Below, in pieces: positions 34,051-51,841 of a stretch of 51,931 bases of DNA. The notes below the pieces were generated by a model. It worked only from the letters and a program-made list of their open reading frames with translations, was not told the DNA's origin and searched no databases. The position numbers and the translations under genes are program-made. Source of the stretch: Clostridia bacterium (GTDB taxonomy: Bacteria; Bacillota; Clostridia; Peptostreptococcales; JAAYPU01); assembly GCA_016278615.1 (NCBI GenBank), contig JADQBM010000052.1:1-51931 (forward strand), written 5' to 3'. Every line of letters begins with the position of its first letter. Positions within the stretch are counted from its first letter, which is position 1.

Positions 34051-34110
34051 GTACACTTTTTGTATACAATAAAATATAACCATAATAAATTTACGTCAAG
34101 AATTATTCTG
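34051..34110 (+). promoter_or_regulatory. Candidate GntR operator upstream of lpdD-ubiX
   Basis: TGTACACTTTTTGTATACAA (34050-34069) contains the palindrome TTGTATACAA (34060-34069). GTCAAGAATTATTCTG follows at 34095-34110. Both strings recur almost exactly upstream of the GntR gene (51777-51841). They lie in the 305-bp gap between divergent sleL and lpdD, which otherwise shows only AT-rich sequence. Confidence 0.65.
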
Positions 34111-34167
34111 AACTCTGAATGATATGGTTAAAATGTAATAAAAATGAATTTCAGCGAGGGCACAACT

Positions 34168-34551
34168 ATGGAAATCACATTTGAAGAAACAAGGGGAAGG
34201 ATTCATGCTTCCCTACATTTAAACTCAATCGGACCTGATGCGCTAATAACTATCACTGGAGGAGATATGCCGCATATAGGTGTTGTATATACCGGTGGAA
34301 AAGATGGTATCTTCCAAAGGTCTGTTTTTGAGCATCATAAAGAAGAAATTATAGTTGAGAAAATTGCAATGGAATTATTAGCAGGGCAATGGTTTGAACA
34401 TTTTGTGGTTATTGGAGGAATTCATGTGCAAAAAATAAGTTTGGCAGAAATTAAAGAAGTTATTTCCATATCTGATATATTAAGGAATCGTATGAAAGAA
34501 TATTTAATTCAAAACCCACCATTCTCCATTATGGAAAAAGGGGCTGTTTAG
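34168..34551 (+). CDS. lpdD: LpdD-like prenylated-flavin chaperone
   Basis: A 127-residue protein resembling LpdD/PAC-type accessory proteins of UbiD-family decarboxylases. Visible family features are ALITITGGDMPHIGVV, FEHHKEEIIVEKIA and HFVVIGGIHVQKIS. It would help pass prenylated FMN to the UbiD enzyme or protect it. The ATG at 34168 is chosen because GAGGG lies 6-7 nt upstream; the ATG at 34144 lacks a ribosome binding site. It is one base from ubiX. The pair stands apart from ubiD but shares its putative operator, so a joint role is likely. Confidence 0.68.
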   Translation: MEITFEETRGRIHASLHLNSIGPDALITITGGDMPHIGVVYTGGKDGIFQRSVFEHHKEEIIVEKIAMELLAGQWFEHFVVIGGIHVQKISLAEIKEVISISDILRNRMKEYLIQNPPFSIMEKGAV

Positions 34552-35118
34552 ATGAAAAGGATTGTTGTTGGCATTTCTGGATCAACAAGTGTCATTTATG
34601 GCATACGACTAATTCAAACTCTTAAAGAACAGACTGATATTGAAATACATTTAGTTATGAGCAAATGGGCAGAAGAAAATATCCGAATAGAAACAAACTA
34701 TCTTCCAGAAGATATCCGTGCAATGGCAAACAGAGCTTATCTTCCTAACGAAATGGACGCTTCTATAGCTAGTGGTTCATTCCAGGTGGAAGGAATGATT
34801 ATTCTTCCATGCAGTATGAAAACCTTGAGCGCTGTAGCCAATGGATACTCCAATAATCTCATTACTAGAGCGGCTGATGTGATGATTAAAGAAAAGCGTT
34901 TATTAGTCATGAGCCCCCGTGAGACTCCCCTTAGCTCAATTCATTTAGAAAACATGTTGAGACTAAGCAGACTGGGAGTGTGTATTATTCCCCCTATACC
35001 CAGCTTTTACAGTCATCCAAAATCAATAGATGATTTAATACGTCATCATATTATGAAGATATTGGATCAGTTTAAAATCTCTGTGTATGAATCATGCCGT
35101 TGGAAAGGAAATTTATAA
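34552..35118 (+). CDS. ubiX: UbiX-family flavin prenyltransferase
   Basis: A 188-residue flavin prenyltransferase, which makes prenylated FMN from FMN and dimethylallyl phosphate for UbiD enzymes. It has IVVGISGSTSVIYGIR near the N-terminus, SGSFQVEGMIILPCSMKTLS around 75-94, and RETPLSSIHLENMLRLS near 122-138. The usual GASGA loop reads GSTSV, keeping a hydroxyl residue. It is the only intact copy in this window, as the second, within the main operon, is frameshifted. It therefore probably serves the UbiD at 37 kb. The C-terminal NL ending is normal for the family. Confidence 0.85.
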   Translation: MKRIVVGISGSTSVIYGIRLIQTLKEQTDIEIHLVMSKWAEENIRIETNYLPEDIRAMANRAYLPNEMDASIASGSFQVEGMIILPCSMKTLSAVANGYSNNLITRAADVMIKEKRLLVMSPRETPLSSIHLENMLRLSRLGVCIIPPIPSFYSHPKSIDDLIRHHIMKILDQFKISVYESCRWKGNL

Positions 35119-35255
35119 TACAATCTAAAGAAAAGTAAAATAGCCATTATCAGACATATAAACACCCTAAGATAGGGTTAGCTGAACGATTTAGCAATTC
35201 AGTGAAATATACATATTTTTGTTTTAAAAATTACTTTGACAACATCCATATAAAA

Positions 35256-35652
35256 TTAGACAAAAGAACCCGTAGGCATCGCTCTAGATTCAGCACCCAG
35301 AACGAACTGCAGTGCAACTGAGCTGTCAGTTGTTTCTGCAAGCTTTGTCTTGAGGCTACAAAGGCCATATTTTCTCTTAGCATTGCCATAGGTGCCTTCA
35401 ATGGCGTTTCGTATTCCTATGTCCAGCTTTTCTCGCATCTTTTGATCTTTCATAAGTGACTTGGCTGGATGTCCAAGTTTCGGTCCGCTAATCCTGATGC
35501 CCTTTTTCTTTAGCCAAGCCAAGTTGTTGCGGTTTCTGAATATTGTATCTACCATGACGGCTTTGGGATAGAATTCAAATCGTTCTTTATAGTTTTCTAC
35601 CGCTTCGATGAGAAAGTTGCCTTCGTTAAAACTTTTGATTTTAGTTTATATT
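35256..35652 (-). pseudogene. IS1182/IS5-type transposase remnant
   Basis: The frame encodes KSFNEGNFLIEAVENYKERF, then FYPKAVMVDTIFRNRNNLAW, RISGPKLGHPAKS and RNAIEGTYGNAKRKYGLCSL, which is the C-terminal third of an IS1182/IS5-group DDE transposase. The last acidic region (RNAIEG) is visible, but the N-terminal two thirds are absent; the frame stops at TAA near 35653. The C-terminus ends early in a non-standard tail. It is a dead relic between ubiX and the DUF401 gene and shows past insertion or rearrangement in this cluster. Confidence 0.8.
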
Positions 35653-35681
35653 CCCTAATCATCTATATTTTACAGCAAATT

Positions 35682-36911
35682 TCATATTGTTTCCAATAAG
35701 TATAAAACTACAATCACTACTGTTGGTATAGGTAAAGCCATCATAAATTTCTTTTGAACATGAAGTAAGCTTGCCTTAAAGTATTCAACAGATAACAAGA
35801 CTGAAGAATTAACAGGTGACAAAATGACACCTATCTTACTTAAAGAATAAACCACACCTACTGAAATAATCCCTAAATTATAACTTTGTATTATAGGTGT
35901 TAATAACGCAAAGGTAACAGCAACAGCACCTGAATAAGCACCAACAACCCAACCTATCAATAATGGTAATATTAAAAGCAGAACTTCTACGGGCATTCCT
36001 AACTGTACCCATAATGAACTTATTCCTTCTATAATAGAACTTTCTTCTACTATTATACTAAAAAACATCATTCCAAAAACTAAAGTAGCCATTTTCCAAG
36101 AAAAGCCCTTACGGAATATCTTTAACAAATCATGCAAAGTAATCTTTTCCTGGATATATACCAACAATAAAGAAAGTCCTATGGCCCACGACATCCTAAA
36201 GTCAAGTATTAGTGTTGAAAATAAAATCAGTAACAAAAAAGAACAATTCTTTAATAAAACAAAAATAGATTTTAAAATCTTCTTCTCATTTGATTCAACA
36301 CGTACAAAACCATCGACTTCTCGTGGGAGCTTCTTTAACTCTAACAAGTAACCGGAAAATAGCATAATTATAGTTAGAGGCAATTGCATTAAAAACAATT
36401 GCTTGGTATTTACATTAGTCAAACTAATAGCTATGATAAAGGCAAATGATATAGGGTTACAAAAATGAATTGCTGCTCTAAACCAAAAGTTAATAAAAGC
36501 TTTCTTGTTTGGTGGAATTACTTCTTTTGATACTTCTTCTATCATAGGAGCTGTTAACATAACTACCCCAGGACCTGGTATCAAAGCAATAACAGAAGGA
36601 ATAATCATTAGCAAAGTCCTAAAATCAGAAAAGATCTCATATAGAGATTTTACAACGCGTTTCATTCTTCCAGTTTCCCTAATCATGTAGCCTAGAATCT
36701 GTATAAGCGAAACTGCAATTAACAACTCTAAAGTAGTGTTATTAGTTAAAGTCAAAAATAAATAATACGATATAGCAGAAAATCCAAAATTAGAAATAAC
36801 CAATATAATCGCACCAATTATAAGAGTAAGCCCTAAAGGAAATTTTTTTTTGTTCAGTACAACGATCATTAACATTACTAAAATTAAAATTATTAATCTT
36901 AATAACAACAT
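35682..36911 (-). CDS. DUF401 family permease
   Basis: A 409-residue polytopic membrane protein of the DUF401 family, with about eleven hydrophobic segments. Conserved-looking loops include SVIALIPGPGVVMLTAPMIE and LGIISVGVVYSLSKIGVILS. The family is related to GntP/citrate-type carriers, and some members sit beside metabolite pathways. Here it is the last gene of the main operon, after ubiD, so it may take up or export a pathway acid. The ATG at 36911 is separated by only two bases from a run of ten G, which also supplies the ribosome binding site. Confidence 0.75.
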   Translation of the reverse strand: MLLLRLIILILVMLMIVVLNKKKFPLGLTLIIGAIILVISNFGFSAISYYLFLTLTNNTTLELLIAVSLIQILGYMIRETGRMKRVVKSLYEIFSDFRTLLMIIPSVIALIPGPGVVMLTAPMIEEVSKEVIPPNKKAFINFWFRAAIHFCNPISFAFIIAISLTNVNTKQLFLMQLPLTIIMLFSGYLLELKKLPREVDGFVRVESNEKKILKSIFVLLKNCSFLLLILFSTLILDFRMSWAIGLSLLLVYIQEKITLHDLLKIFRKGFSWKMATLVFGMMFFSIIVEESSIIEGISSLWVQLGMPVEVLLLILPLLIGWVVGAYSGAVAVTFALLTPIIQSYNLGIISVGVVYSLSKIGVILSPVNSSVLLSVEYFKASLLHVQKKFMMALPIPTVVIVVLYLLETI

Positions 36912-36913
36912 AA

Positions 36914-36923
36914 CCCCCCCCCC
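36914..36923. repeat. Ten-base poly-G tract at the DUF401 start
   Basis: Ten consecutive C on the plus strand (G on the coding strand), two bases upstream of the ATG. The run overlaps the ribosome binding region. If the in-frame TTG at 36929 were used, it would be inside the coding sequence. Confidence 0.9.
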
Positions 36924-36950
36924 GAGCAAATAAAATGTCTTTTATTACAC

Positions 36951-36987
36951 ATGGTGGTGTACGAAAATTTAATAGGTATACCACCAT
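36951..36987 (-). promoter_or_regulatory. Hairpin between ubiD and the DUF401 gene
   Basis: ATGGTGGTGTAC (36951-36962) pairs with GTATACCACCAT (36976-36987) at 11 of 12 positions, with a 13-nt loop. No T-run follows on the minus strand, so it is more likely an mRNA processing or stabilising element, or an operator, than a terminator. Confidence 0.55.
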
Positions 36988-36998
36988 TAATTTCTATA

Positions 36999-38432
36999 CT
37001 ATTTTATATTATAATCTTCTAATTTAATTCTGTTGAAAACATCCATATCTACTTCACAAACTTCTGAGAAAGGTTCACCATAAGGTCGGGTAGCATCTAT
37101 ACCCATTCGAGTTACTAAAGGTTTCTTGGATTCCAAATTGGTGGTTGGGTCAAGTGATGCACCCATACAACCTTTAATAAAGAAAATATCCTTTTCTGCC
37201 CATACTCTTGAGTTGACAGCCCATAAAACTTCTTTATCATTATATATGTCAATATCTGAATCAACTACAATACCATATTTTATATGCCAATCACTTATAA
37301 ATGCTGCTAATATTGCATCTTTTGCTTCCCCGGCCACTCGCTGATCTAATGATAAATAAACCATATACCTACCCATCCCAGCAGGTGATAAATGAACTGC
37401 CTTTAACCCCGGGCAAGTTGCTTTAGCCTTTTCATAAATAACAGCTTCCTTGGGGATAGAACCTATTAAACTATGCTCAGAATGGCCTATCCAGCAAGAC
37501 TGATAAATTGCATCTTTTCTTCTCGTTATGGCAGTAACCTTAACTAAAGGGTCCATACGTATATCAACTTTTCCATCACGAATAGTTTTATAATAACGTG
37601 TATGTTCACCAACCGGTCCTTCTTCCACCATTTTATCGGGATAAACATAACCTTCAATTATCATTTCAGCTTCAGCAGGTACCATTAGATCTTTACCATA
37701 GGTAACCGATGGCACAATTCTTAGAGGCTCCTGCATTGCAGCACCCACTACTTCATATTCATTTTTACCAAAAGGCCCTTCCCATTGACTACCTAGATAA
37801 AATGATGGATGATGTCCAACAACAATAGCGAATGGCGCTGGCTGTCCTGCATCCAGATATTTTTTCACTAACATACCAGAATGATGATGGGGCTCGGCAT
37901 GAACTGCTGAGGTATCTTTACCCTTAACATTAAATCGAATCATGGCTATATTATACTTGCCAGTGTCAGGATCCTTGATTACCATTGAACCACTCAAAAT
38001 GTAAGGTCCTCCATCTTTTGCATGATGAACTGGTATTGGGTATTTTGTCAAATCAACATCATCACCCTGCTCTATTACTTCTTGTACTGGTGCATCACTT
38101 ACTTCGATTGGCTCATAAAGTTTTTGGTACATTTTAGATAGAGCTAAAGGCAACTCCATTTTATCTTCATCAGCCTTTAATCCTAAGGCCATTGCTAATT
38201 TGCGACGGGTTGCAAAAGCATTGAATAATAGTGGTGTTTCTGATATTTCCCCATTAATACCTTTTACCTTATTAAAAATAGTAAGTGGCAACCTGTCTTC
38301 CAGCTCTAACTTACGTAAAATAGCCGTCGCTTCATGTTTTGAATCAACTTCTTTGTCAATATGAAGTATTTCACCTGGAGCAGCTTCTTCTAAGTATTGA
38401 AGAAAGGTTCGCAAGTTCTTTGGCATTTTCAA
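36999..38432 (-). CDS. UbiD-family decarboxylase
   Basis: A 477-residue UbiD-family decarboxylase that would use prenylated FMN to remove CO2 from an unsaturated acid. Family features are NIAMIRFNVKG near 180 (Arg of the catalytic triad), the metal and cofactor region VGHHPSFYLGSQ, and IIEGYVYPDKMVEEGPVGEH near 260-280 carrying the acidic residues. It lies between tctA (28 bp upstream) and the DUF401 permease. The substrate is not readable; aromatic acids are common for the family, but the genes around it suggest an aliphatic unsaturated acid. It depends on the UbiX/LpdD pair at 34 kb. Confidence 0.87.
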   Translation of the reverse strand: MKMPKNLRTFLQYLEEAAPGEILHIDKEVDSKHEATAILRKLELEDRLPLTIFNKVKGINGEISETPLLFNAFATRRKLAMALGLKADEDKMELPLALSKMYQKLYEPIEVSDAPVQEVIEQGDDVDLTKYPIPVHHAKDGGPYILSGSMVIKDPDTGKYNIAMIRFNVKGKDTSAVHAEPHHHSGMLVKKYLDAGQPAPFAIVVGHHPSFYLGSQWEGPFGKNEYEVVGAAMQEPLRIVPSVTYGKDLMVPAEAEMIIEGYVYPDKMVEEGPVGEHTRYYKTIRDGKVDIRMDPLVKVTAITRRKDAIYQSCWIGHSEHSLIGSIPKEAVIYEKAKATCPGLKAVHLSPAGMGRYMVYLSLDQRVAGEAKDAILAAFISDWHIKYGIVVDSDIDIYNDKEVLWAVNSRVWAEKDIFFIKGCMGASLDPTTNLESKKPLVTRMGIDATRPYGEPFSEVCEVDMDVFNRIKLEDYNIK

Positions 38433-38460
38433 TTCCTCCTTAGTTTGATTGATTTAAATA

Positions 38461-39933
38461 TCATTTACTATATCTGCTTATTAATTTTTTTACATCTATA
38501 AATGAAGTAAATAAAATCAATAACACTATTATAAATAAAATTATCGCTAAAGGTCTTTCAAAAAATAGTGATAAATCACCACCTGATATTCTTACTGATC
38601 TGTGGAAATTAGATTCTGCCATATTTCCAAGGATTACTCCCAACACCATACAGGGGAGTGGGAACTTATTTTTTACCATAATATATCCAATGAACGCAAA
38701 AATAATCATTAACATAACGTCTAAAATCTGATTACGATAGGAAAATGCTCCTATGATTGCTAACAGTCCTACCAACGGCGTTAATAAGGAATTAGGAATC
38801 AACGTAATCTTCGCAACTCTATTAGCAAAGACCAAGCCCAAAATCAAAAATGCCACTTGTCCAAAAATGAATCCCCAAATCAAAGTTGGTACCATAGGGT
38901 CAGTAAAGAAAGCATTCCCTGGCCTTAACCCATGTATCATCATAGCACCCAGGAATATAGCCGCTGAAGATCCTCCAGGTATCCCTAAAGCAAATGCTGG
39001 AATGAGAGTAGCCGTTGATGTTGCATTATTGGCCACTTCTGGAGCCATCAGACCATCTATGCTACCTTTACCAAAACTTTCTGGATCCTTCGCAAATTTT
39101 TTAGCCACCAAGTAAGAAACAAAATTAGATACATTGATACCAACACCAGGCATAATTCCTAAAACTGTACCCACTATAGCTGAACGTATTAAAGTAACAG
39201 GGCGTTTTAATACTTCTTTAGCACCGTCTAATAAGCCACTTACCTTTGAAGCCTTCGCTATAGAGCCTTTTTCATCACTCAAAAGCAACGCTTGTGAAAG
39301 TGCAAAAATACCGATTACAAAAGGAACAAAGGCTATACCTTCTTCCAAATAATAAGTGTTCATAGTAAAACGATTAGTACCTGTAATTACGTCTCTACCA
39401 ATAAAAGATAGCATTAATCCTAAACCACCCATTATTAAACCACGCTTTGTATCTCCACGTCCTGTAACGGCAACTAAGGAAATTCCAGCTAAAGTAAGCA
39501 TGAATAACTCGGCAGTACCAATCTTTAGAGACCACTCTCCTAACATTGGGCCTAAAAAAGCAAGCGCCAACACACCAATTATGCCGCCAATGAAAGAACT
39601 CATTGTAGATATCCCAAGGGCTTTTCCACCTTCACCTTTTTGTGTCATGGGATAACCATCAAAAGTGGTAGCAATAGAACCAGGGGTTCCTGGAGTATTG
39701 AGCAATATAGCTGTAATACCTCCACCAAATACGCAGGAAGCGTATGTGGCTCCCAGAAATACTAGAGCTTCTACTGGGGTCATACCAAATGTTAATGGTA
39801 AGAAAATGGCCAGTGCAAAGACAGGTCCAAGACCTGGCAATATACCTAATACTAATCCGCCCACAGATCCGGCAAGAAGGTAAAGCAAAGTATATCCTTC
39901 GAACAATAACAATAATCCATCTAACAACTTCAA
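38461..39933 (-). CDS. tctA: Tripartite tricarboxylate transporter large permease TctA
   Basis: A 490-residue integral membrane protein of the TctA family with about twelve helices. Clear signatures are GLVLGILPGLGPVFALAIF, GATYASCVFGGGITAILLNT and PGTPGSIATTFDGYP near residues 40-105, plus ALGIPGGSSAAIFLGAMM further on. It is the main transport subunit of a TctABC system, which imports carboxylic acids with a periplasmic-type binding protein. A TTG start at 39933 (AAAGGA upstream) is chosen; longer in-frame starts would overlap tctB by 58 bases. Confidence 0.92.
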   Translation of the reverse strand: MKLLDGLLLLFEGYTLLYLLAGSVGGLVLGILPGLGPVFALAIFLPLTFGMTPVEALVFLGATYASCVFGGGITAILLNTPGTPGSIATTFDGYPMTQKGEGGKALGISTMSSFIGGIIGVLALAFLGPMLGEWSLKIGTAELFMLTLAGISLVAVTGRGDTKRGLIMGGLGLMLSFIGRDVITGTNRFTMNTYYLEEGIAFVPFVIGIFALSQALLLSDEKGSIAKASKVSGLLDGAKEVLKRPVTLIRSAIVGTVLGIMPGVGINVSNFVSYLVAKKFAKDPESFGKGSIDGLMAPEVANNATSTATLIPAFALGIPGGSSAAIFLGAMMIHGLRPGNAFFTDPMVPTLIWGFIFGQVAFLILGLVFANRVAKITLIPNSLLTPLVGLLAIIGAFSYRNQILDVMLMIIFAFIGYIMVKNKFPLPCMVLGVILGNMAESNFHRSVRISGGDLSLFFERPLAIILFIIVLLILFTSFIDVKKLISRYSK

Positions 39934-39956
39934 AACATCCTTTCTTTTGCAGTCTA

Positions 39957-40475
39957 CTATCCAAATATTCCCATTGGTAATGGAACATAAAAGAAGCGTC
40001 CAAAGATCAACCATACAGTAATTGTAGCAATTACAGCTGTTAAAATAATTACTTTTTTATTTCGGTAACCTAACAACCAAGGACTAATAAGTAAATAAAC
40101 TATGGTAACTGGATAAAAGCCTACAGGCTTTAATAATAAATAATAAACTATGACTAGCATTAATACTAATAGCCAATTAATACCTACTTCTTTCTTCTCC
40201 AATTGTTGGTCTTTACTTTCTTTACCTTCTTTAGTTTCAGCTATATCTTCAGCTTCAATCTTTTTTTTCTTTTTATAACGGGTTATAAATTCAAGGACAA
40301 TCATAAAAAATGTAAATACAGATACTGCTTGAGGAAAACGTGCTGCTTCCTGTGGGAAAGAATAGGAGAAAGCAAAAATAACTACAGAAAAAACAGCAAT
40401 ACAATACAATAGAAAGGTGTCGGCATCAATTAGTAATTTCGTAGCAACTTTTGCCAGTGATTTTATTCTCATCAT
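39957..40475 (-). CDS. tctB: Tripartite tricarboxylate transporter small permease TctB
   Basis: A 172-residue protein with four transmembrane helices, as expected for TctB (DUF1468). A charged middle region (KKKKKIEAEDIAETKEGKES) lies between the second and third helices and is longer than usual. It sits between tctC and tctA in the standard order. The start follows GGAGGAGGATTAG. A 15-bp stem-loop separates it from tctC. Confidence 0.87.
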   Translation of the reverse strand: MMRIKSLAKVATKLLIDADTFLLYCIAVFSVVIFAFSYSFPQEAARFPQAVSVFTFFMIVLEFITRYKKKKKIEAEDIAETKEGKESKDQQLEKKEVGINWLLVLMLVIVYYLLLKPVGFYPVTIVYLLISPWLLGYRNKKVIILTAVIATITVWLIFGRFFYVPLPMGIFG

Positions 40476-40512
40476 CTAATCCTCCTCCTTAATAAGTTAT
40501 TTTTTTCAATTC

Positions 40513-40545: not shown

Positions 40546-40554
40546 TTTATAAAG

Positions 40555-41577
40555 TTATTCAGAAATGCCTGATAGTTTAAGTAAGGTCTCCTTATATTCA
40601 TTCGCATACTTGTACAAATTAGACTGTGCAGCTTTGAGCTCTGTAGAATCCAGAGGTCGTAAACCAAAGGAGCCACTGGCAGCTTCTTGGAATTCCGGAT
40701 CATTTACAGCTTGTTTAGCTGCATCTTCTAGTATCGCTAATATTTCAGCAGGAGTTCCTGGAGGTGCTACTAGAGGATTTACTATTTCAGCATAAACATC
40801 GGGATAATATTCATTAAACATGGGTAGATCAGGCAAAACTTCATCTCTTTGTGAAGCAAAACCAATTATAGTCTTTGCTTTACCATCTGCTTCCAAATCA
40901 CGGGCTCTAACGATACTGGCCATAGTCAAATCAACGTGACCCCCAATAGCAGCATTTATCGCATCTCCACCTGAATCATAGGGAACTATATTAAACTCAA
41001 TCTCTACGTTTTCTGTAAGCATAGCTAAGGCTAACTGGCTATTGGAAATACCTGATGTTGTACCTAAGGTAAGGGTACGTTCCTTTGCTGCCTCAAGCAC
41101 ATCCTCTAATGAATCTAAATCAGAGTCTGCACTCGTAATTAATGCATTATAATCTCCTCCGGCAACATTATAAAGTGCTTCAAAATCTTCATAGTTGTAA
41201 TCTACATTAGGGGCAAGAGTGTCTGTCAATAAGTCAGATGGCCAGTTTCCTAATAATAAGGTGTATCCATCAGGGTCTGCATGATATGCAGCTGAAGTAC
41301 CAATTTTAGTACCACCACCTGACATGTTTTCAACTATAACATTAGCTCCTAGATACTTTTGAAAATAAGGCTGAAATGTCCGAGCAACAACGTCAGTACT
41401 ACCACCGGCGCCACGAGCAACTAATATCTTGACAGGTCCATTGGGGAAATCAGTGCTTTCTTCCACATCTTCGTTAACTTCTGCATCACTAGCACTTTGA
41501 TTGGTACACCCCATCACTAATACCAATACCATCATCAAAGAAACCACCAACAAGAAAAACTTGCTTTTACGTAACAT
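40555..41577 (-). CDS. tctC: Tripartite tricarboxylate transporter substrate-binding protein TctC
   Basis: A 340-residue lipoprotein of the TctC/BUG family. The signal peptide ends at lipobox VMGC (Cys24). The mature protein carries FPNGPVKILVARGAGGSTDV (ligand loop at the domain interface), ENMSGGGTKIG and ANPDGYTLL-like HADPDGYTLLLGN. It captures an extracellular carboxylic acid for TctAB. The ligand cannot be named from sequence; the pathway genes suggest a di- or tricarboxylate. The start follows AGGAGGAAG. Confidence 0.92.
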   Translation of the reverse strand: MLRKSKFFLLVVSLMMVLVLVMGCTNQSASDAEVNEDVEESTDFPNGPVKILVARGAGGSTDVVARTFQPYFQKYLGANVIVENMSGGGTKIGTSAAYHADPDGYTLLLGNWPSDLLTDTLAPNVDYNYEDFEALYNVAGGDYNALITSADSDLDSLEDVLEAAKERTLTLGTTSGISNSQLALAMLTENVEIEFNIVPYDSGGDAINAAIGGHVDLTMASIVRARDLEADGKAKTIIGFASQRDEVLPDLPMFNEYYPDVYAEIVNPLVAPPGTPAEILAILEDAAKQAVNDPEFQEAASGSFGLRPLDSTELKAAQSNLYKYANEYKETLLKLSGISE

Positions 41578-41668: not shown

Positions 41669-42364
41669 TCATTTCAAGTTTTGTAAATATTCTTTAATTT
41701 CTTCTGCTCTAACCACATTAGCAAATTTAGCCTGCATGTCAAAAAGGTTTATACAGTGACTTGTTTCTATCCTGTCAAATACAGCCTCCTCTACAACAGT
41801 AACGTTATAACCGTAAGAAAACGCATCAATAACACTCGCTCTAACACAGCCACTGGTTGTGCCACCTGTTACTATCAAACTGTCTACATTCAATTTCTTT
41901 AGATAGTAGATAAGAGGCGTACCCCAAAAAGCACTTGGTGCATGCTTTGTAATTACTAATTCCCCAGGTTTCGGTTCAATTCCACTAGGAAATCCCATTC
42001 CCCTTAACCTTATTTCTTCATCTAGCGTCTGCCACTTATTCCCCTCTTTCTTACCACTCCAAGGATCTAGTATATTTGATTTTGTAGTTCTATCAACATT
42101 AGTATAAATAACTGGAATATTCTTGTTTCGGCAAAGAGGTATTAACCCCTTAATCACATCGACACTCTTCCAGCCAATTTCTCCGCAACTGGTAGGGAAC
42201 GTTTCTATTGATTCAAGTATGGGTTTTGGCTCAAACCCGACAAACTCATAGGTCACATCTATAACCAACAGTGCAGGCTTTTGTCCCATCTCTTGACGCT
42301 TACCATAGCCAGCTTTTTTAAAAACTTTTTTATCTCTTTCTGTTAGCAGCTTTTCCCAAACCAT
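41669..42364 (-). CDS. Isochorismatase family amidohydrolase
   Basis: A 231-residue cysteine hydrolase resembling N-carbamoylsarcosine amidase and maleamate amidohydrolase. The triad is Asp36 (VIDVTYE), Lys140 (VITKHAPSAFWGT) and Cys173 (TTSGCVRA). Such enzymes release ammonia from an amide or N-carbamoyl group, here perhaps to give the free acid handled by the rest of the cluster. The ATG at 42364 is 7 nt after AGGAG. It lies between tctC and the MmgE/PrpD gene in the same direction, with a larger gap of 112 bp to the latter. Confidence 0.85.
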   Translation of the reverse strand: MVWEKLLTERDKKVFKKAGYGKRQEMGQKPALLVIDVTYEFVGFEPKPILESIETFPTSCGEIGWKSVDVIKGLIPLCRNKNIPVIYTNVDRTTKSNILDPWSGKKEGNKWQTLDEEIRLRGMGFPSGIEPKPGELVITKHAPSAFWGTPLIYYLKKLNVDSLIVTGGTTSGCVRASVIDAFSYGYNVTVVEEAVFDRIETSHCINLFDMQAKFANVVRAEEIKEYLQNLK

Positions 42365-42476
42365 AATATCACTCCTCATCGGACTTATAGTGAGACACCG
42401 TCTCGTCCAATTTAGATAACAAATTCAAAATTGTAACTAAATTTTAATAGCCTTTTAGGGACTAATCTCTGCAGAC

Positions 42477-43883: not shown

Positions 43884-43936
43884 GACTTTCTCTCCTTTGT
43901 GATTTATTTTTTCTCCTACCTTCACGATATTCAAAA

Positions 43937-45344: not shown

Positions 45345-45923
45345 CTAGAACAGTTTTCTTATAACCAAAGTTCTGTGCTTCCTCAACGTTTTACCTTCTA
45401 CCTCTATGTGAAATATATCTAAAGTCCTACCAACCGACTGCATCAGTATATCTTCTATAGTTTCAGGCTCGGAATAGAAAGTAGGTACTGGGGGAACAAT
45501 AAAGACTCCTTCACGAGAAAGTTTAAGCATATTTTCTAGATGTATAGTGTTAAGCGGAGACTCTCGAACCAAAAGAAAAAGTTTTCTTCTTGCTTTCAAG
45601 TTAACATCTGCTGCACGAATAATTAGGTCATTGGAGAATCCATTTGCAATTCCTGAAACAGTCTTCATGCTACATGGCGCTACTATCATTCCATCACACC
45701 TAAAGGAACCACTGGCAATAATAGCAGCCAAGTTATTCGGTTCATGGCAGTAAGTTGCCTTTTTTTACCTCTTCAACAGAAAACTGTGTTTCATGTTATA
45801 TAGCCATTTAACCCAATCCCTAATTATGAGATGTGTTTCTACTTTATGTTTTTGTAATTGATCTAATATTCTGATACTATATATCGCACCTGAAGCCCCT
45901 GTTATAGCTAGTACTAATCTCAA
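45345..45923 (-). pseudogene. Frameshifted second copy of ubiX
   Basis: From a TTG at 45923 the frame reads LVLAITGASGAIYSIRILDQ and on to TAA after KR. Downstream the same frame resumes with KKATYCHEPNNLAAIIASGS and continues intact to 45345, including PCSMKTVSGIANGF, RESPLNTIHLENMLKLS. Between them, HETQFSVEEVKK lies in another frame; at least two shifts exist, one in a 7-A run near 45765. The copy has the standard GASGA loop. It is therefore an inactivated UbiX gene inside the operon, and the intact paralogue is at 34552. Confidence 0.82.
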
Positions 45924-45972
45924 GATTTCATCTCTCTTCTTAATAGAGATTCAAAATCAATAGAATCATTTT

Positions 45973-47262
45973 TTATAAACCCTTTGGCCAAAAGTCTTCT
46001 GGTGCTAATTCTGGATGAGCAGAAGACATAGCTTGGAAATGTTCGAGCTCATTATCTCTTTCTATCATTTCTATTGCATCTACAGGACATACTTGACTAC
46101 ACAAACTGCAGCCTGCACAATTTTTCTTAATAACACCTGCTTTTTGTCCAAATGCTAATGCATCATACCAGCATACTTCTATACATCTTTTGCATCCTAT
46201 ACATTTATCAGGTCTCACTTTTGCATATAGGGGTTTAACTTTATCAACTAATTCTTGATTCGTATATATCTGGTTCAAGGCCATATCTTTGAAATCATTT
46301 ACTGAGTCATATCCTTTTCTTTTCATAAAGCCTTCAATACCATCTAGAAGTTCTTTTACATATCCTAATCCTCTTATCATTATAGGTGTACAATACTGAA
46401 CAGCTGAAGCCCCTGACATAATAAACTCAACCGCATCTTGCCATGTCGAAAGCCCCCTATTACCCATAACTGCAATGTTACATTCTCCTGCTATCTCAGC
46501 AGTCCATCTCATGCTTAAAGCTTTTAATCCTGGACCTGTTCCAGGTGCAAAACCATAAATATTTGGTTTCCCTGTCTCAATATCCACTCTTAAAGTTTTA
46601 TTGTTTGCAAACATTGTTACCCCATCGGCACCTGCTTCTTCAAAAAGCTTACACACTTCTTTAAAATTACTGCCATCTGGGCTCATTTTTACAAATAAAG
46701 GAATATTTACAATACTTCGAATGTGCTTAAGTACTTTTACAGCTTCATGAGGATTTTTTGTATAATGAATGCCGATATTTAAATCTAATTCACTTTTCGT
46801 TAATCCATCTGGAGGAAAAGGACAACAAAAGTTCAGTTCCAAAGCATCACAACCAGCCTTTTCATAAGCTATCGCTATCTCTTCCCATTCCTCAATGGTT
46901 CTTGCCGAAAAATTTCCTATAATGGCACAGTTGTGCTTTTTCGCATATGGAGATGCTTCCTCGATAATCTTAGCGAATTGAAGAGGGGGATAGCATGAGT
47001 TATGTTCTCTATGCATCCAAAAATAACTATCAGGAGTATTATAGGGCTTCATTTTATCTTTTTTGTAGTCCAACAAACTATATAATGGCTTTGGATAGCG
47101 TTGTAAGTACCATACAGTGGAGGTAGTTTTTGTTACTATTCCTCCCAAACCAGCATCTACACAATCTTTGATATGTTCGACAGTACCCGCTAAAGGTCCG
47201 CCTGCTGCAACAATTGGATTCTTTAAATCTAAATTTCCTAATTTTACTGATAAATCTATCAT
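45973..47262 (-). CDS. PreA-like FMN/Fe-S oxidoreductase
   Basis: A 429-residue protein resembling the PreA subunit of NAD-dependent dihydropyrimidine dehydrogenase. The dihydroorotate dehydrogenase-like barrel is seen in LKNPIVAAGGPLAGTVEHI, LNFCCPFPPDG and VKMSPDGSNF. Two [4Fe-4S] motifs close the protein: CIGCKRCIEVCW and CAGCSLCSQVCPVDA. The catalytic-cysteine region reads CCPFPPDG rather than CPHG. No PreT partner is nearby, so electrons must come from elsewhere. It would reduce or oxidise an unsaturated intermediate. The ATG at 47262 follows GGAGGATATT. Confidence 0.82.
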   Translation of the reverse strand: MIDLSVKLGNLDLKNPIVAAGGPLAGTVEHIKDCVDAGLGGIVTKTTSTVWYLQRYPKPLYSLLDYKKDKMKPYNTPDSYFWMHREHNSCYPPLQFAKIIEEASPYAKKHNCAIIGNFSARTIEEWEEIAIAYEKAGCDALELNFCCPFPPDGLTKSELDLNIGIHYTKNPHEAVKVLKHIRSIVNIPLFVKMSPDGSNFKEVCKLFEEAGADGVTMFANNKTLRVDIETGKPNIYGFAPGTGPGLKALSMRWTAEIAGECNIAVMGNRGLSTWQDAVEFIMSGASAVQYCTPIMIRGLGYVKELLDGIEGFMKRKGYDSVNDFKDMALNQIYTNQELVDKVKPLYAKVRPDKCIGCKRCIEVCWYDALAFGQKAGVIKKNCAGCSLCSQVCPVDAIEMIERDNELEHFQAMSSAHPELAPEDFWPKGL

Positions 47263-47302
47263 TTTATAATATCCTCCGCTATTTTTATTAAATGAAAACA
47301 CT

Positions 47303-47713
47303 TTACAACTCTTTCTTGTGAACTTCGACTGTCCCTTCATCTGCATTTATAATTAAATAGTCGCCAGTATTAATTAAACTGATATCAATTTCATCTACCA
47401 TTGGTAGATCTGATACAATAGCTCCGATAACAACTATCGATTCCGCTTCAATATTTACAATTCCTAAAGGACCAACACCATTTTTAACCACATCAAAGAG
47501 CATATATGAGCCTCCAGTAGATCCCTTGGATTGAGGGAAAACAAGAATTTTTCCTTGCATACATTCACCTTCAAGTTCATGGCCACGTTCAATAATATAA
47601 CCAGTTTTAGGATTCATACTTCCCATAAAAGACAAGGGTTCTTTACTAACAAGTGCTTCGCCCTCTACTTTTCCTTCTACTATTTTTCTACCTTTTAATA
47701 TCATAGTATCCAC
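47303..47713 (-). CDS. Aconitase X small (swivel) subunit
   Basis: A 136-residue AcnX swivel-domain protein (formerly DUF126). It carries FPQSKGSTGGSYMLFDVVKN and IVNIEAESIVVIGAIVSDLP, with the serine in the SKGSTGGS loop matching the substrate-binding loop of aconitases. It pairs with the large subunit 12 bp upstream. Known AcnX enzymes dehydrate cis-3-hydroxy-L-proline in bacteria and phosphomevalonate in archaea. The start is taken as GTG at 47713, six bases after GGGGG; an ATG at 47704 is possible. Confidence 0.86.
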   Translation of the reverse strand: MDTMILKGRKIVEGKVEGEALVSKEPLSFMGSMNPKTGYIIERGHELEGECMQGKILVFPQSKGSTGGSYMLFDVVKNGVGPLGIVNIEAESIVVIGAIVSDLPMVDEIDISLINTGDYLIINADEGTVEVHKKEL

Positions 47714-47725
47714 GGTCTACCCCCT

Positions 47726-48922
47726 CTATTCTCCATCTATTCCTGCTTGGATACAGTCTTCCAACTGAATTAATGCTGTCTTAACATCCCACAGGCCAGG
47801 CATATAATGTGCTAACTTTCCGGAATTTGTAACAACCTGTTTGTAGCCTCTATCTAAAGTTGGGCTTAAAACAGGACAGGTATCACATATTATCTCTGCA
47901 CCTGATTTCTCAATTATTTCTGTGTATCCCATAGTATCTGATAATACTTTAATCTGTCTTGATGTACACACCCACATATCAGATTTTAACTTTTTACCTG
48001 ATAGCAATTCTGATATTTTTTTCATCTCTTCGATAGAACAGTGAGGACAACCTACTACTACAATATCTACCTTGCCCTTAATACTGAATTTTTCACTTAC
48101 CTGATTAAACTCTTCTTGAGCAAATACGAGTATTTCATAGTTATCTTCAAGAACATTTTCTTTTAGAGCTTCTGGTGTTACATTCTCAATATGATACAGA
48201 GCAACCGCTCCCGACGATGCGAGTGCCGCACCTAAAGCTTTTAAATTATCAATTGTAGGATTCTTTATGCCCCGAAATACTGGCACTCTTTTTCCTACTT
48301 TCTGTCCAATATAATAGCCCAAAGCCGCATAATCACAATCTGATTCTAATGCTATTTCCACTTCAACTAAATGTGTTCCTTTTCTGTTTTCATCTAAATG
48401 GTAACCATATGCTGGAACTCTCCCTGTTATTGCTGCTGCTAAAGCACTGGGGCCACCTTCCCGATTAGTTCTTGCACCTATAACGGAGTTAGCAAAAACG
48501 ATGGCAGATGATTCTCCCCATGCAATATGTTCACCAAATCTCGGCAAATTACCTACCAGATAAGGGGTGCAGGTATTCGTACAAAAAGCACCCATTTTTT
48601 TATATGCGTCTACTAATTCAACCTGTTTCTGAGAAAAATCTGCAGGAAACCCAATTTTTTCCCAATCCTCTACATCAATTCCTATGGTATTTAATGTAAC
48701 AGGCGTAATAAAATATCCATTTATACTGGCTTCCTTTACATAATTTAATCCTGCATCTCCAGTGACTCTATAGGATACTCCTGGAGAGTGGACATTTTTT
48801 ATTTCTATCATTTTTTCTGCTCCATATATTTCACCTAATGCCACTAAGACTTTCATGTTCTTTTGAACAATTTCTCCGAAATCACCGTTAAGCATCTTTT
48901 TTTCTTTGTCAGTAAGATACAT
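47726..48922 (-). CDS. Aconitase X catalytic subunit
   Basis: A 398-residue AcnX catalytic protein (formerly DUF521). Signature segments are CTNTCTPYLVGNLPRFGEH, ESSAIVFANSVIGARTNREG, CPHCSIEEM and CDTCPVLSPT; the cysteines would hold the [4Fe-4S] or [2Fe-2S] cluster used in dehydration. It forms a heterodimer with the downstream swivel subunit. The substrate is unknown and the family is broad. The ATG at 48922 is chosen because GGGAGGA lies 7 nt upstream. Confidence 0.88.
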   Translation of the reverse strand: MYLTDKEKKMLNGDFGEIVQKNMKVLVALGEIYGAEKMIEIKNVHSPGVSYRVTGDAGLNYVKEASINGYFITPVTLNTIGIDVEDWEKIGFPADFSQKQVELVDAYKKMGAFCTNTCTPYLVGNLPRFGEHIAWGESSAIVFANSVIGARTNREGGPSALAAAITGRVPAYGYHLDENRKGTHLVEVEIALESDCDYAALGYYIGQKVGKRVPVFRGIKNPTIDNLKALGAALASSGAVALYHIENVTPEALKENVLEDNYEILVFAQEEFNQVSEKFSIKGKVDIVVVGCPHCSIEEMKKISELLSGKKLKSDMWVCTSRQIKVLSDTMGYTEIIEKSGAEIICDTCPVLSPTLDRGYKQVVTNSGKLAHYMPGLWDVKTALIQLEDCIQAGIDGE

Positions 48923-48977
48923 AATATTTCCTCCCAAACTATCGTTACTTAATAGTTTCTACCAATATCTAACAATT

Positions 48978-49649
48978 TTACTCTTCACGTGTCTGCAGTC
49001 GATGATAACCAGAACTGGCACGTGCTTCTTTTAATGTGAAGCCTGCTTTTATCTTTGCCTCAATTTGGGATTCAACTTCCGCAATGCCTTGTGCCACTTT
49101 GAGTACTTCTTCTGCTCTTTCAATAGGAATGACCACAACACCTGTTTCATCTCCAACTATTATATCTCCCGGCTTCACTTGAATTCCTGAAACAGACACA
49201 GGAACATTGATAGCATCCATATATACTCGATCCTTACCAGTAACCATATAGCTTCCTTTTGAGAAAATAGGATATCCAAGCTTTCTGATTGCTGGAATAT
49301 CACGACACACACCGTCAATAATTGTCCCTTCAATACCCATTCGCATTGAAATCATAGACATTAAATCGCCCCATACCGTGCAATATTCTCTGCCTGAATT
49401 ATCAATAACAACAACCTGTCCAGACTCTACATCATCAAGAAAGTCACCTACAGTACCTTTCACATTTCCACAAGGAACATAGTGAATCGTAAAAGCTTGA
49501 CCACAGACTGTTGTGCCACTTGATATGGGTTTTATTCCTAATAAACCGCCCTTAATGCCTAACTTATCTAAAGCATCTGAAACGCAGGTAGTGTCTAATT
49601 CCTTATAACCCTCTAAAATGGATTGATCTATTTTAGGCACTTCATTCAT
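48978..49649 (-). CDS. RraA-like aldolase/decarboxylase (1)
   Basis: A 223-residue RraA-superfamily protein. It has the motif TIIDGVCRDIPAIRKLGYPI and the closing QVKPGDIIVGDETGVVVIP; the Arg-Asp pair of the first motif is kept. Members of the family include 4-hydroxy-4-methyl-2-oxoglutarate aldolase, which yields pyruvate, and oxaloacetate decarboxylase. It overlaps the upstream RraA-like gene by four bases (ATGA) and is the third of three such genes. Pyruvate or oxaloacetate release is inferred from the family. Confidence 0.83.
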   Translation of the reverse strand: MNEVPKIDQSILEGYKELDTTCVSDALDKLGIKGGLLGIKPISSGTTVCGQAFTIHYVPCGNVKGTVGDFLDDVESGQVVVIDNSGREYCTVWGDLMSMISMRMGIEGTIIDGVCRDIPAIRKLGYPIFSKGSYMVTGKDRVYMDAINVPVSVSGIQVKPGDIIVGDETGVVVIPIERAEEVLKVAQGIAEVESQIEAKIKAGFTLKEARASSGYHRLQTREE

Positions 49650-50290
49650 TTCTTATTCCCTCCTTCTTGCTCGATGATTTTATCAAAACCATATATTTCG
49701 AGTGTTGTTTTACCTGATCTTAGCATTTCTATAATTTTTACTTCTTTATCAGCTATGGCTTGTGCTTTTTGAAGGACTTCTCTTGCTTTTTCCTTTTGAA
49801 TAACTACAATGCCATCCGCATCACCAACGATTATATCTCCTGGATGTACAACACATCCTGCACATTCAATGGTTTCATTTATAGCCCCCAAGCTTTTCTT
49901 TACTGTTCCCCCTGGGTTAAAGCCTTTACAAAAAAACGGGAAATTTAGTTTTTCTATTTCCAATGAGTCTCTACATGTCCCATTTATTACAATGCCTGCT
50001 ATACCTCTTTCTTGACATGCTATAACCACGATTTCACCTATAGGTCCGGCTCCTGTATATCCGTGTGCATCTATGACGAGTACTGAACCAGGCTCAGCAC
50101 AATATATTGCTTGATGAATGGTCAGGTTATCTCCGGGAGGGCATCGGACTGTGACGGCTGGCCCGGTAAGGGTACTCGTTTTGTCTATTGGTTTAATAGA
50201 GGCTTCCATATTACCTCTTTTACCATTAGCATCACATACGTTTCCTGTGGGTAACTTAGAAAATTGCTTTAGTTCTTCTTTTGATAACAT
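49646..50290 (-). CDS. RraA-like aldolase/decarboxylase (2)
   Basis: A 214-residue RraA-superfamily protein. It has GIVINGTCRDSLEIEKLNFP in the position of the catalytic DG/NG-x-CRD motif and HPGDIIVGDADGIVVIQ near the end. Asn replaces the Asp of DGxxRD seen in both neighbours (ING against IDG). It is the middle member of the tandem and overlaps the downstream gene, so the products may form a mixed multimer, though homohexamers or trimers are usual for the family. Substrate unknown. Confidence 0.82.
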   Translation of the reverse strand: MLSKEELKQFSKLPTGNVCDANGKRGNMEASIKPIDKTSTLTGPAVTVRCPPGDNLTIHQAIYCAEPGSVLVIDAHGYTGAGPIGEIVVIACQERGIAGIVINGTCRDSLEIEKLNFPFFCKGFNPGGTVKKSLGAINETIECAGCVVHPGDIIVGDADGIVVIQKEKAREVLQKAQAIADKEVKIIEMLRSGKTTLEIYGFDKIIEQEGGNKK

Positions 50291-50310
50291 ATATACCTCC
50301 TTTATACATC

Positions 50311-50973
50311 CTATTTATTTAACATTTTTTCATAACTAAATTTATCATCCACTTCAACCATGGTTTTGCCTGATAAAATTTCATTTATCATTTCTTCTTC
50401 TTTATCATAAAGCTCTTCTGCTTTTAGAACCACTTCTTCCAAATTTTCTTGTGGTATAATCACAACACCGCTACGATCACCAAACACAATATCTCCTGGT
50501 CTTACTTGTACATGTCCAAACTGTATCATGACATTTGTAGCCTCTTCCATGATTCTTCCTCGTGCCGTCGCTACAACAGACCCTCGGGCATAAACAGGAA
50601 ATTTTATGTCTACATAATCGTCAACATCTCTACATGCACCATCAATTACCACACCGCTAACGCCTTTCATTTTAGCACCATTAGCTAGAATACCTCCCCA
50701 GCAAGACGTATCCAAACGCCCACCATTATCAATAATGATAACATCGCCCTCTTTCGCTGCATCAATAGCCTTAACCCCTAAATGATTCTTTCCTTTAGTC
50801 AATCCTGCCGCAGTAATCTTAATTGTTACAGCTTCTCCAACAATTTTATTGGTTCCTTCCCAAATGGGGCGTATCCCATACGTAGCCCCTTTTAGTCCGA
50901 ATGCGTCAAGTGCATCCGAAACATTTGTAGATGATAGTTTCATAAGTCGCTCCCGATAATGTTCAAATGACAT
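50311..50973 (-). CDS. RraA-like aldolase/decarboxylase (3), first gene of the operon
   Basis: A 220-residue RraA-superfamily protein. It shows GVVIDGACRDVDDYVDIKFP, then VRPGDIVFGDRSGVVIIP, and a C-terminal extension (EMINEILSGKTMVEVDDKF) shared with the other two. It leads the large minus-strand operon and lies 102 bp downstream of the TTGTATACAA palindrome. Together with its two paralogues it forms an unusual triplication. AGGAAGGTAGAGAGG precedes the start. Confidence 0.83.
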   Translation of the reverse strand: MSFEHYRERLMKLSSTNVSDALDAFGLKGATYGIRPIWEGTNKIVGEAVTIKITAAGLTKGKNHLGVKAIDAAKEGDVIIIDNGGRLDTSCWGGILANGAKMKGVSGVVIDGACRDVDDYVDIKFPVYARGSVVATARGRIMEEATNVMIQFGHVQVRPGDIVFGDRSGVVIIPQENLEEVVLKAEELYDKEEEMINEILSGKTMVEVDDKFSYEKMLNK

Positions 50974-51064
50974 GCCTCTCTACCTTCCTTTCGTTTTCTC
51001 CAATACCACCAAATTAGTTCCACTCGTTTGAGTTTACAAATTACAAAATATTTTTTTGCTAAAT

Positions 51065-51087
51065 TTTGTATGCAGATTGTATACAAT
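51065..51087 (-). promoter_or_regulatory. Candidate GntR operator upstream of the RraA operon
   Basis: The perfect palindrome ATTGTATACAAT (51076-51087) is next to a partial copy TTTTGTATGCAG (51064-51075). It lies between the GntR gene and the first RraA-like gene, as expected for a site controlling the operon. Confidence 0.65.
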
Positions 51088-51104
51088 TTAAAACTTAAAA
51101 AATA

Positions 51105-51755
51105 TCATCTATAATACATCTTTCTGCAAGCTTCCATTGCACTCTCTCTTACATTATTGATATGTGTTTTCAAGAGATGTTCTGTTTTTAATAAGTCCCT
51201 ATCTTTCAGAGCACGTACAATTGCAAGGTGTTCTTCTTTAGATTTATCCAACCTTTGGGGTAAGAGTGATGATATTATTCTGACTCTTTCTATTTGAATG
51301 TTGATATTGTTTAAAAAGTTTTCCAATCTTCGGTTGTCTCCATTATGCACAATCACATGGTGAAGCAATCTGTCATATTTATAAAAATCATCTGCGGAAC
51401 TGTTTGTATCTAGTTGCAATATGGAATTCTCTAGTTCTTGTAATTCATCATCGCTTATTTTGTTATAAGCAATTTGCAATGCTAAAATTTCAAGGGCTAC
51501 CCTCAGCGAAAAAATCTCTTCTATATCTTGAACAGTCACTTCACTGACAAAGGAACCTCTTCCAGGGATATGACGCACCAACCCTTCAGCTTCCAGTTTT
51601 TTTAGAGCTTCTCTTATAGGCGTCCTGCTGATACCAAGCGTATCCGATATTTGCTGCTCGGTTATAGGATCGCCAGGTTTCAAAAGATTGCTGACAATTG
51701 CTTCGCTTAGATATTTATATGCTGTTATGTTTCTATTCTTATTTTTATTTTGCAT
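51105..51755 (-). CDS. GntR family regulator with FCD domain
   Basis: A 216-residue FadR-subfamily regulator. The winged-helix half is clear: PGDPITEQQISDTLGISRTP, IREALKKLEAEGLVRHIPGR. The C-terminal FCD domain (about 80-210) has LLHHVIVHNGDNRRLENFL and EEHLAIVRALKDRD, carrying metal- and ligand-binding residues; FCD proteins often respond to carboxylic acids such as citrate, gluconate or pyruvate. It heads the catabolic cluster on the same strand, and palindromes with TTGTATACAA occur at its own promoter and at two others in the cluster. It is the likely local controller. Confidence 0.9.
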   Translation of the reverse strand: MQNKNKNRNITAYKYLSEAIVSNLLKPGDPITEQQISDTLGISRTPIREALKKLEAEGLVRHIPGRGSFVSEVTVQDIEEIFSLRVALEILALQIAYNKISDDELQELENSILQLDTNSSADDFYKYDRLLHHVIVHNGDNRRLENFLNNINIQIERVRIISSLLPQRLDKSKEEHLAIVRALKDRDLLKTEHLLKTHINNVRESAMEACRKMYYR

Positions 51756-51776
51756 AGATTTTTCCTCGAAAGTTAT

Positions 51777-51841
51777 TGCACACTTTTTGTATACAATTTG
51801 ATTTTAGCATAATCGAATCAATAGTGTCAAGAATTATTCTG
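51777..51841 (-). promoter_or_regulatory. Candidate autoregulatory GntR operator region
   Basis: TGCACACTTTTTGTATACAA (51777-51796) and GTCAAGAATTATTCTG (51826-51841) match the pair upstream of lpdD: 19 of 20 bases for the first string, all 16 for the second. The palindromic core is TTGTATACAA at 51787-51796, 32 bp before the GntR start. Confidence 0.65.

Follow-up and report, generated by a model that had tools for sequence, protein, structure and literature searches.

Closest described systems and the gene cluster

Enzymes of the AcnX, UbiD, and RraA families are known from several described pathways. In the archaeal modified mevalonate pathway, a two-subunit mevalonate 5-phosphate dehydratase (AcnX IIb) acts together with a UbiD decarboxylase, and in the lower pathway of protocatechuate/gallate 4,5-cleavage, LigJ carries out the hydratase step alongside the aldolase LigK. 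The lower part of the lumichrome/riboflavin pathway (LumE, LumW, LumY, and LumX) runs through hydrolysis, hydration, and retro-aldol cleavage to pyruvate (PMC12746152); the word RraA does not appear in its main text, and LumX is at most a possible member of that family. The available part of another report is about an aerobic lignin pathway in which UbiD and a 4-hydroxy-4-methyl-2-oxoglutarate (HMG) aldolase take part, not about a cluster of the type considered here (PMC12673573). Here, we describe a co-regulated-looking set of ~18 genes within a 51,931-nucleotide stretch of DNA from a Clostridia bacterium (the window, which is contig C62 of a 3.5-Mb genome with 128 contigs and 98.97% completeness). 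With the case about evenly poised, the whole is best explained as a GntR-controlled catabolic island in which AcnX would feed a retro-aldol stage of three RraA-type proteins.

The cluster appears to be a conserved, co-regulated catabolic system built from known enzyme families, and its points of interest are the bacterial AcnX group and the RraA triad. The host is probably an anaerobe. No description of the cluster or its pathway was found in a search of open-licence full texts, in agreement with a preliminary description of the locus, made from its sequence alone, that knew of no pathway using the whole set. Family assignments of the window proteins with Pfam and NCBIfam confirmed the gene families named there, each where it had been placed, and support its view of a carboxylate-type catabolic cluster. 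Fifteen genes run leftward from rraA1 (50973) to the DUF401 gene (35682), none separated from the next by more than 97 nt; a further 131 nt upstream of rraA1 comes gntR, and lpdD-ubiX1 run rightward from 34144. The genes are as follows:

34144..34551, plus strand: LpdD-like protein (PF21758 PAC_bac, 65.7 bits, cut-off 27)
34552..35118, plus strand: UbiX1 flavin prenyltransferase, intact (TIGR00421, 242.8 bits, cut-off 108.9)
35682..36929, minus strand: DUF401 membrane protein, putative transporter (Pfam; relative in the G574 cluster)
36999..38432, minus strand: UbiD decarboxylase dependent on prenylated flavin mononucleotide (prFMN), type-A clade (Pfam/NCBIfam; best solved match 6h6v)
38461..40014, minus strand: TctA (Pfam, 433 bits)
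39957..40475, minus strand: TctB (Pfam)
40555..41577, minus strand: TctC solute-binding protein (Pfam)
41669..42379, minus strand: isochorismatase-fold hydrolase (Pfam; relatives in the G574 (49%) and G764 (42%) clusters)
42477..43934, minus strand: MmgE/PrpD family protein, divergent (nearest solved: IDS-epimerase and cis-aconitate decarboxylase)
43937..45313, minus strand: OadA-like carboxyltransferase (HMGL + PYC_OADA; Pfam/NCBIfam)
45345..45947, minus strand: second UbiX, broken reading frame (Pfam/NCBIfam)
45973..47262, minus strand: PreA-like FMN/4Fe-4S oxidoreductase (DHO_dh + 4Fe-4S; Pfam/NCBIfam, cofactors by family); the open reading frame opens at 47346 and similarity begins at 47262
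47303..47713, minus strand: AcnX small (swivel) subunit (Pfam/NCBIfam)
47726..48937, minus strand: AcnX large catalytic subunit, type-B clade (Pfam/NCBIfam, tree)
48978..49649, minus strand: RraA3 (Pfam, alignment, trees)
49646..50290, minus strand: RraA2, lineage of the HMG/4-carboxy-4-hydroxy-2-oxoadipate (CHA) aldolase (Pfam/NCBIfam, trees)
50311..50973, minus strand: RraA1 (Pfam, alignment, trees)
51105..51755, minus strand: FCD-domain GntR regulator (Pfam/NCBIfam)

The RraA triad and its plasmid counterparts

RraA1, RraA2, and RraA3 formed separate groups in unrooted, midpoint-drawn trees of 33, 45, and 58 rows. Support for RraA3 was 100/99 in all three trees and the separation of RraA2 from the others had 100/100, with values of 92/61, 88/78, and 98/93 for RraA1 across the three. 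The third RraA of genome G947, on a very long branch, entered neither the 58-row tree nor the triad count, and the same tree was built without the RraA1 copy at G947:C2. The RraA2 group includes the HMG/CHA aldolase of Pseudomonas putida together with a protein of Aminobacter scoring above the LigK cut-off (345.7 vs 304.5), which makes aldol cleavage to pyruvate or oxaloacetate, as suggested in the preliminary description, likelier. The window RraA2 itself missed the HMG/CHA aldolase equivalog cut-offs (172.9 vs 179 for NF006731 and 152.8 vs 304.5 for TIGR02798), and RraA1 and RraA3 scored below it. Arg123, Asp124, and Glu199, the roles of which have been described together with the HMG/CHA aldolase reaction (PMC5065237), are present in all three window proteins. 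The first two stand in each of the 33 RraA rows of one alignment and in each of the 29 printed rows of another, and Glu199 is kept except in two RraA1 rows (Cupriavidus and one Bradyrhizobium); columns 71 and 75, which differed between the two alignments, were not used.

To compare neighborhoods, we used a presence matrix of loci of our own choosing, consisting of 14 AcnX loci (13 followed clusters and Cupriavidus) and 8 plasmid loci without AcnX, with several of the stretches cut. The plasmid loci are a non-random 8 of 43 matched records, those of Novosphingobium and Croceicoccus coming from closely related hosts. In all eight, RraA1 and RraA3 are direct neighbors, and RraA2 is present in four, while the same stretch encodes an Amidohydro_2 protein in seven cases and a LigB-type dioxygenase in five (checked with Pfam on the Aminobacter and Novosphingobium proteins and by similarity on the others). 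No relative of either protein (1e-10) was found in the stretches of the 14 AcnX loci, and Cupriavidus necator C39 carries AcnX and all three RraA with no Amidohydro_2 relative. It is mainly because AcnX replaces Amidohydro_2 in this pattern that we infer it to be a hydro-lyase feeding the RraA stage; an Amidohydro_2 protein might, however, be a pyrone hydrolase. The resulting arrangement would resemble the 4,5-cleavage lower pathway in its aldolase lineage and in having a hydro-lyase gene near the aldolase gene, and differs from it in the use of AcnX instead and in two extra RraA lineages. The three RraA proteins, separate lineages that co-occur, are candidates for acting together. Plasmid pSROS01 of Streptosporangium roseum (L105) carries genes of the three RraA lineages in a row, with no Amidohydro_2/LigB or other annotated catabolic gene in 16.6 kb of the 28-kb plasmid.

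The bacterial AcnX group

The window AcnX shares with the archaeal mevalonate 5-phosphate dehydratase its two subunits, the three cysteine ligands (TkAcnX Cys 110, 283, and 342), and the carboxylate/hydroxyl-binding residues, keeping Glu129, Ser130, Lys361, and Tyr365 (residue roles from PMC8184944); three such cysteines hold a [4Fe-4S] cluster in the Aeropyrum AcnX (PMC10040528). Could the locus therefore be a bacterial version of the archaeal modified mevalonate pathway, in which AcnX dehydrates mevalonate 5-phosphate and UbiD decarboxylates? The nearest solved AcnX is indeed a Thermococcus enzyme (355 bits vs 226 for the hydroxyproline enzyme), and UbiD lies near AcnX at 5/7 archaeal loci of our contig scan, with UbiX at two of those five. 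However, only Asn79 of the phosphate-binding pair is kept, the other, Asn53, being Val in all 13 bacterial cluster AcnX, including that of the window, and Asn in TkAcnX and five archaeal UbiD-paired AcnX. Val53 is not unique to the clusters; beyond them it is also seen in a single row from G065 and two from Bathyarchaeota. Moreover, the window UbiD falls outside the archaeal UbiD group, and the importers, GntR, and RraA, which like the PreA-like protein are additions relative to the archaeal pair, do not fit isoprenoid synthesis. We consider this reading very improbable.

Catabolism of cis-3-hydroxyproline or a related amino acid through AcnX seems just as far-fetched. The sole NCBIfam match of the large subunit is the cis-3-hydroxyproline dehydratase model, and the AcnX-RraA set of genome G947 adjoins amine dehydrogenase genes; the match, however, reaches 316 bits against a cut-off of 700, the window AcnX has Pro where the hydroxyproline enzyme has Asp (TkAcnX position 47; for the Agrobacterium enzyme, the row compared comes from a mutant chain), and no proline-pathway gene was recognized in the window cluster with Pfam or NCBIfam. 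According to the available part of PMC8184944, AcnX subclasses IIc-IIf are without the landmark residues of either known function and await characterization.

Recurrence of the core in other genomes

Relatives of the AcnX large subunit (E <= 1e-20) were present in 34/391 genomes of the class, the host included, and at 14 loci of the genome-contig scan, which reached only close relatives. Within ~1.5-kb flanks, an RraA relative accompanied AcnX at 2/29 other class loci (G111 and G136) and at 3/14 contig-scan loci (L033, L034, and L038), and RraA was absent from eight longer stretches surrounding further AcnX copies (G222, G348, G065, G335, G228, G371 (two), and G387). RraA1 (E <= 1e-60) was found in 6/398 genomes of the phylum, the host included; the 2/20 genomes of the class of G460 and the 1/10 of that of G574 are already among these six, and a further 2/185 belong to the phylum of L033. 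In all five other genomes of the set of six, RraA1 lies beside both AcnX subunits (in G947, this holds for one of two copies).

Of the 14 AcnX loci of the presence matrix, 13 have RraA1, 11 the complete RraA triad, 10 a PreA-like protein, and 9 UbiD. The core of two AcnX subunits, three RraA lineages, and a PreA-like protein, usually with UbiD, is spread sporadically over the window's phylum, Synergistota, and Spirochaetota. Two cluster types can be told apart. Type A (the window, G111, G136, G498, and G574) has the window-type PreA and, in all but G136, UbiD. Type B (L033, L038, G460, G755, and G764) has another PreA (28-29% identical to that of the window in L033 and L038; two PreA genes in G460) and an SdhA-like flavoprotein; a sister UbiD is present in all but L038. 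At G947:C4 (L093), RraA1-RraA3-RraA2-like-AcnX adjoins genes for sarcosine-oxidase-like amine dehydrogenase subunits, which gives the core a third context.

The preliminary description had read the whole gene set as one path and suggested a genome search for the same neighborhood. Such a search recovered the core in several phyla, while the full set proved not to be fixed, since relatives lack PrpD, OadA, the isochorismatase-fold hydrolase, and the transporter or carry in their place LeuCD and an isopropylmalate dehydrogenase-like protein (IMDH), the SdhA-like flavoprotein, or other transporters. The isochorismatase-fold gene occurs in the window, G574, and G764 clusters, and relatives of it (1e-15) were found in 2/11 other cluster genomes, both times in or beside the cluster. 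PrpD-family genes are present in the window, G498, and G574 (27-28% identity to the window PrpD). G574 is closest in content to the window, with relatives of DUF401 and TctABC as well, and has an NCS2 permease gene after ubiD; the transporters of other relatives look TRAP/TAXI-like and Liv-like by eye. Two further proteins were set aside: a NicX-like protein of G574 (L089:15367-16440), suspected by its look, had no Pfam/NCBIfam match at the limits used, and PanB of G136, which is PanB by score, is followed by genes that by eye resemble tungstate-transport/cofactor genes.

LeuCD and IMDH genes, which the window cluster does not have, accompany 5/14 AcnX loci (G111, G136, G498, G574, and L034). 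Copies elsewhere in the host genome were rejected as the missing part, as the best of them are 43%/40% (C100) and 33%/39% (C25) identical, compared with 47-67% for LeuC and 54-62% for IMDH between clusters; the adjacent C100 copies read as leucine-type and those of C25 as aconitase/isocitrate dehydrogenase-like. The LeuCD and IMDH genes bear on another alternative, in which a citrate-, aconitate-, tricarballylate-, or itaconate-type acid would be dehydrated by AcnX and PrpD, decarboxylated by UbiD, and split by RraA or OadA. The G111 LeuCD scores as a member of the homoaconitase/isopropylmalate-isomerase family, and the G111 IMDH scores, below all cut-offs, as a relative of homoisocitrate/isocitrate/tartrate dehydrogenase; TctABC, PrpD, and OadA in the window point the same way. 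Against this, the window PrpD matches 2-methylcitrate and cis-aconitate enzymes weakly (64.5 vs 950, 48.4 vs 575, and 40.8 vs 458 bits for the 2-methylcitrate dehydratase equivalogs), relatives use other kinds of transporter, and the RraA1-RraA3 pair points to acids of the ring-cleavage type. We regard this alternative as rather unlikely, and the citrate- or aconitate-type substrate of the preliminary description is not supported as written.

An operator-like palindrome before each transcription unit

The palindrome TTGTATACAA has only three perfect copies in the window, one before each of the three transcription units:

34060..34069, no strand assigned: perfect copy of TTGTATACAA before lpdD-ubiX1
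51077..51086, no strand assigned: perfect copy of TTGTATACAA before the rraA1 operon
51787..51796, no strand assigned: perfect copy of TTGTATACAA before gntR

From its density in the rest of the genome, 0.07 copies would be expected in 17.8 kb (P ~6e-5 for at least three, for a motif picked after being seen). As a specific 10-mer alone, TTGTATACAA was rejected, with 17 genome sites compared with 10 for a reversed-pattern control, and its weight lies only in the placement and the longer shared flanks of its copies. Among relatives, perfect copies lie in the gntR/acnX gap of G111, the gntR/rraA2 gap of G136, and the gap between gntR and the adjacent preA of G460, and copies with one mismatch precede gntR or the operon in G111, G136, G460, G755, G947, and L038. 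GntR may bind at these predicted sites, and because of the shared motif on three units and the tight gene spacing, the cluster looks like one regulated unit. Elsewhere in the host genome, a perfect copy at C31:56735 (L073), with a second site at C31:60434, lies near a DapA-family gene (306.5 bits) and a 2Fe-2S/FAD/ferredoxin set that by eye resembles the set beside the G947 AcnX.

Mosaic origin and accessory enzymes

The window UbiD has three UbiD domains (TIGR00148, 299.7 bits, cut-off 244.85) and keeps the Arg and three Glu columns that are catalytic in the family. Its best solved match (248 bits) is 6h6v, the tautomycetin decarboxylase TtnD, a biosynthetic enzyme of Streptomyces, from which the tree sets the window UbiD apart in a clade of its own. 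For the VdcBCD/LpdBCD hydroxyarylic acid decarboxylase, scores stayed below the VdcB and VdcC family cut-offs (260.1 vs 290 and 244.6 vs 650 bits). A Diapherotrites archaeon (L036:7842-11530) carries ubiX, ubiD, an lpdD-like gene, and both AcnX subunit genes in a row, so LpdD-like proteins occur also with archaeal AcnX-UbiD pairs.

Among the cluster types, UbiD of the window falls with type A (100/100), and the window PreA is 44-72% identical to type-A PreA. The window AcnX, in contrast, groups with type B (100/100), and its placement in one clade with G111, L034, G498, G574, and G136 was rejected by the approximately unbiased test (p-AU 1e-60, for groups named after the tree was seen). Because of this difference, the operon has the look of a recombinant between both cluster types. 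RraA1-3 are nearest to those of G111 (84, 77, and 76%), in a tree without a type A/B split.

The PreA-like protein missed the PreA equivalog (dihydropyrimidine dehydrogenase (DPD) subunit; 202.5 vs 335 bits). The "amidohydrolase" of the preliminary description is a hydrolase, but one of isochorismatase fold, with N-carbamoylsarcosine amidohydrolase as its nearest solved relative; its OadA-like protein has the HMGL and PYC_OADA domains, but Pfam found no biotinyl domain in it and no biotin carrier was recognized in the cluster. A 143-aa biotinyl/lipoyl-domain frame lies elsewhere in the genome.

UbiX2 (45947-45345) carries an internal stop, which falls in a short stretch that is out of frame, and therefore UbiX1 or a source outside the cluster must supply prFMN. 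An insertion sequence (IS) remnant (DDE_Tnp_1_2) lies at 35256-35555 between ubiX1 and DUF401. The broken second UbiX, the mosaic origin, and the shared operator go beyond the preliminary description. Together with the exchangeable accessory genes and the sporadic distribution of RraA1, the mosaic ancestry and these remnants would also suit a patchwork of unrelated acid-degradation modules on one, partly decaying, island with no single pathway. A patchwork would not lead us to expect one operator-like motif on all three units, tight spacing, a core kept across several phyla, and one intact UbiX remaining behind the shared motif, and we judge it unlikely.

The contig ends 176 bases past gntR, so the cluster may be cut on this side and a divergent part may be absent from the contig; positions 51797-51931 give the impression of a mobile element. 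A tRNA scan of the window and an Rfam search of 28000-51931 returned no match. Outside the cluster, 28751-29662 (plus strand) encodes a QueG/reductive-dehalogenase-like Fe-S protein (QueG 135 bits, cut-off 200).

A possible oxygen-independent route

On the catabolic-island reading, an acid would be imported through TctABC, and perhaps DUF401. The PreA-like FMN/4Fe-4S enzyme would perform a redox step on it, and UbiD would decarboxylate with prFMN made by UbiX1 and with the LpdD-like protein as a helper. The AcnX pair, a [4Fe-4S]-type hydro-lyase by its cysteines, would carry out a hydration or dehydration at a beta-hydroxy acid, while the three RraA proteins would split an HMG/CHA-type 4-hydroxy-2-oxo acid into pyruvate and a second oxo acid, probably one such as oxaloacetate, from which OadA could remove CO2 if a biotin carrier is borrowed. 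The isochorismatase-fold hydrolase and PrpD would supply accessory steps of the window variant. The substrates, step order, and direction of AcnX in this scheme are deductions, and the order of the genes, taken as the order of reactions in the preliminary description, is no evidence of it.

Which kind of acid enters is suggested by two sets of hints: (i) a cyclic or heterocyclic acid would suit the PreA-like protein found in both cluster types, the isochorismatase-fold hydrolase, the G574 NCS2 permease, and the connection with ring-cleavage clusters; (ii) TctABC, PrpD, OadA, and LeuCD/IMDH point to a tricarboxylate. The former is slightly favored. A more specific form of the catabolic-island reading, which we put forward tentatively and well short of even confidence, is an oxygen-independent counterpart of the meta-cleavage lower pathway, in which a ring acid would be opened without a dioxygenase through reduction of the PreA type and decarboxylation by UbiD, some variants also using the isochorismatase-fold hydrolase, with AcnX as the hydratase and the three RraA proteins as one hetero-oligomeric aldolase. 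Its hydrolysis-hydration-retro-aldol order yielding pyruvate would match that of the lumichrome pathway, which differs in being oxygen dependent and in its cupin-annotated hydratase LumY (PMC12746152).

Several points weigh against the catabolic-island reading. The DPD active-site Cys (Cys671 of the pig enzyme) did not align to a Cys in PreA, in a pairwise alignment only, which makes the reaction of PreA uncertain. OadA is present in the window cluster alone among the 14 AcnX loci. The L034, G947, and Cupriavidus stretches combine AcnX and RraA without a PreA-like protein or UbiD, so that these two need not share a reaction chain with AcnX and RraA, and G294, whose AcnX is the nearest (77%) and which also has a UbiD, lacks RraA on a 15.6-kb contig that begins within ubiD. 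The G947:C2 RraA1 (L094:9883-10587) lies amid genes that look 5-oxoprolinase-like by eye, with no AcnX in the stretch. Finally, TTGTATACAA with at most one mismatch was not found before the cluster genes of G498, G574, G764, L033, and L034, and the G294 copy (at most one mismatch) is far from its cluster genes.

The window cluster gives the bacterial AcnX group a genomic context and a testable reaction. From the RraA trio common to anaerobe-type and ring-cleavage clusters, it seems that an aldolase known as a single enzyme from described pathways can belong to a larger unit. Should the substrate be aromatic or heteroaromatic, anaerobes would have one more route for it.

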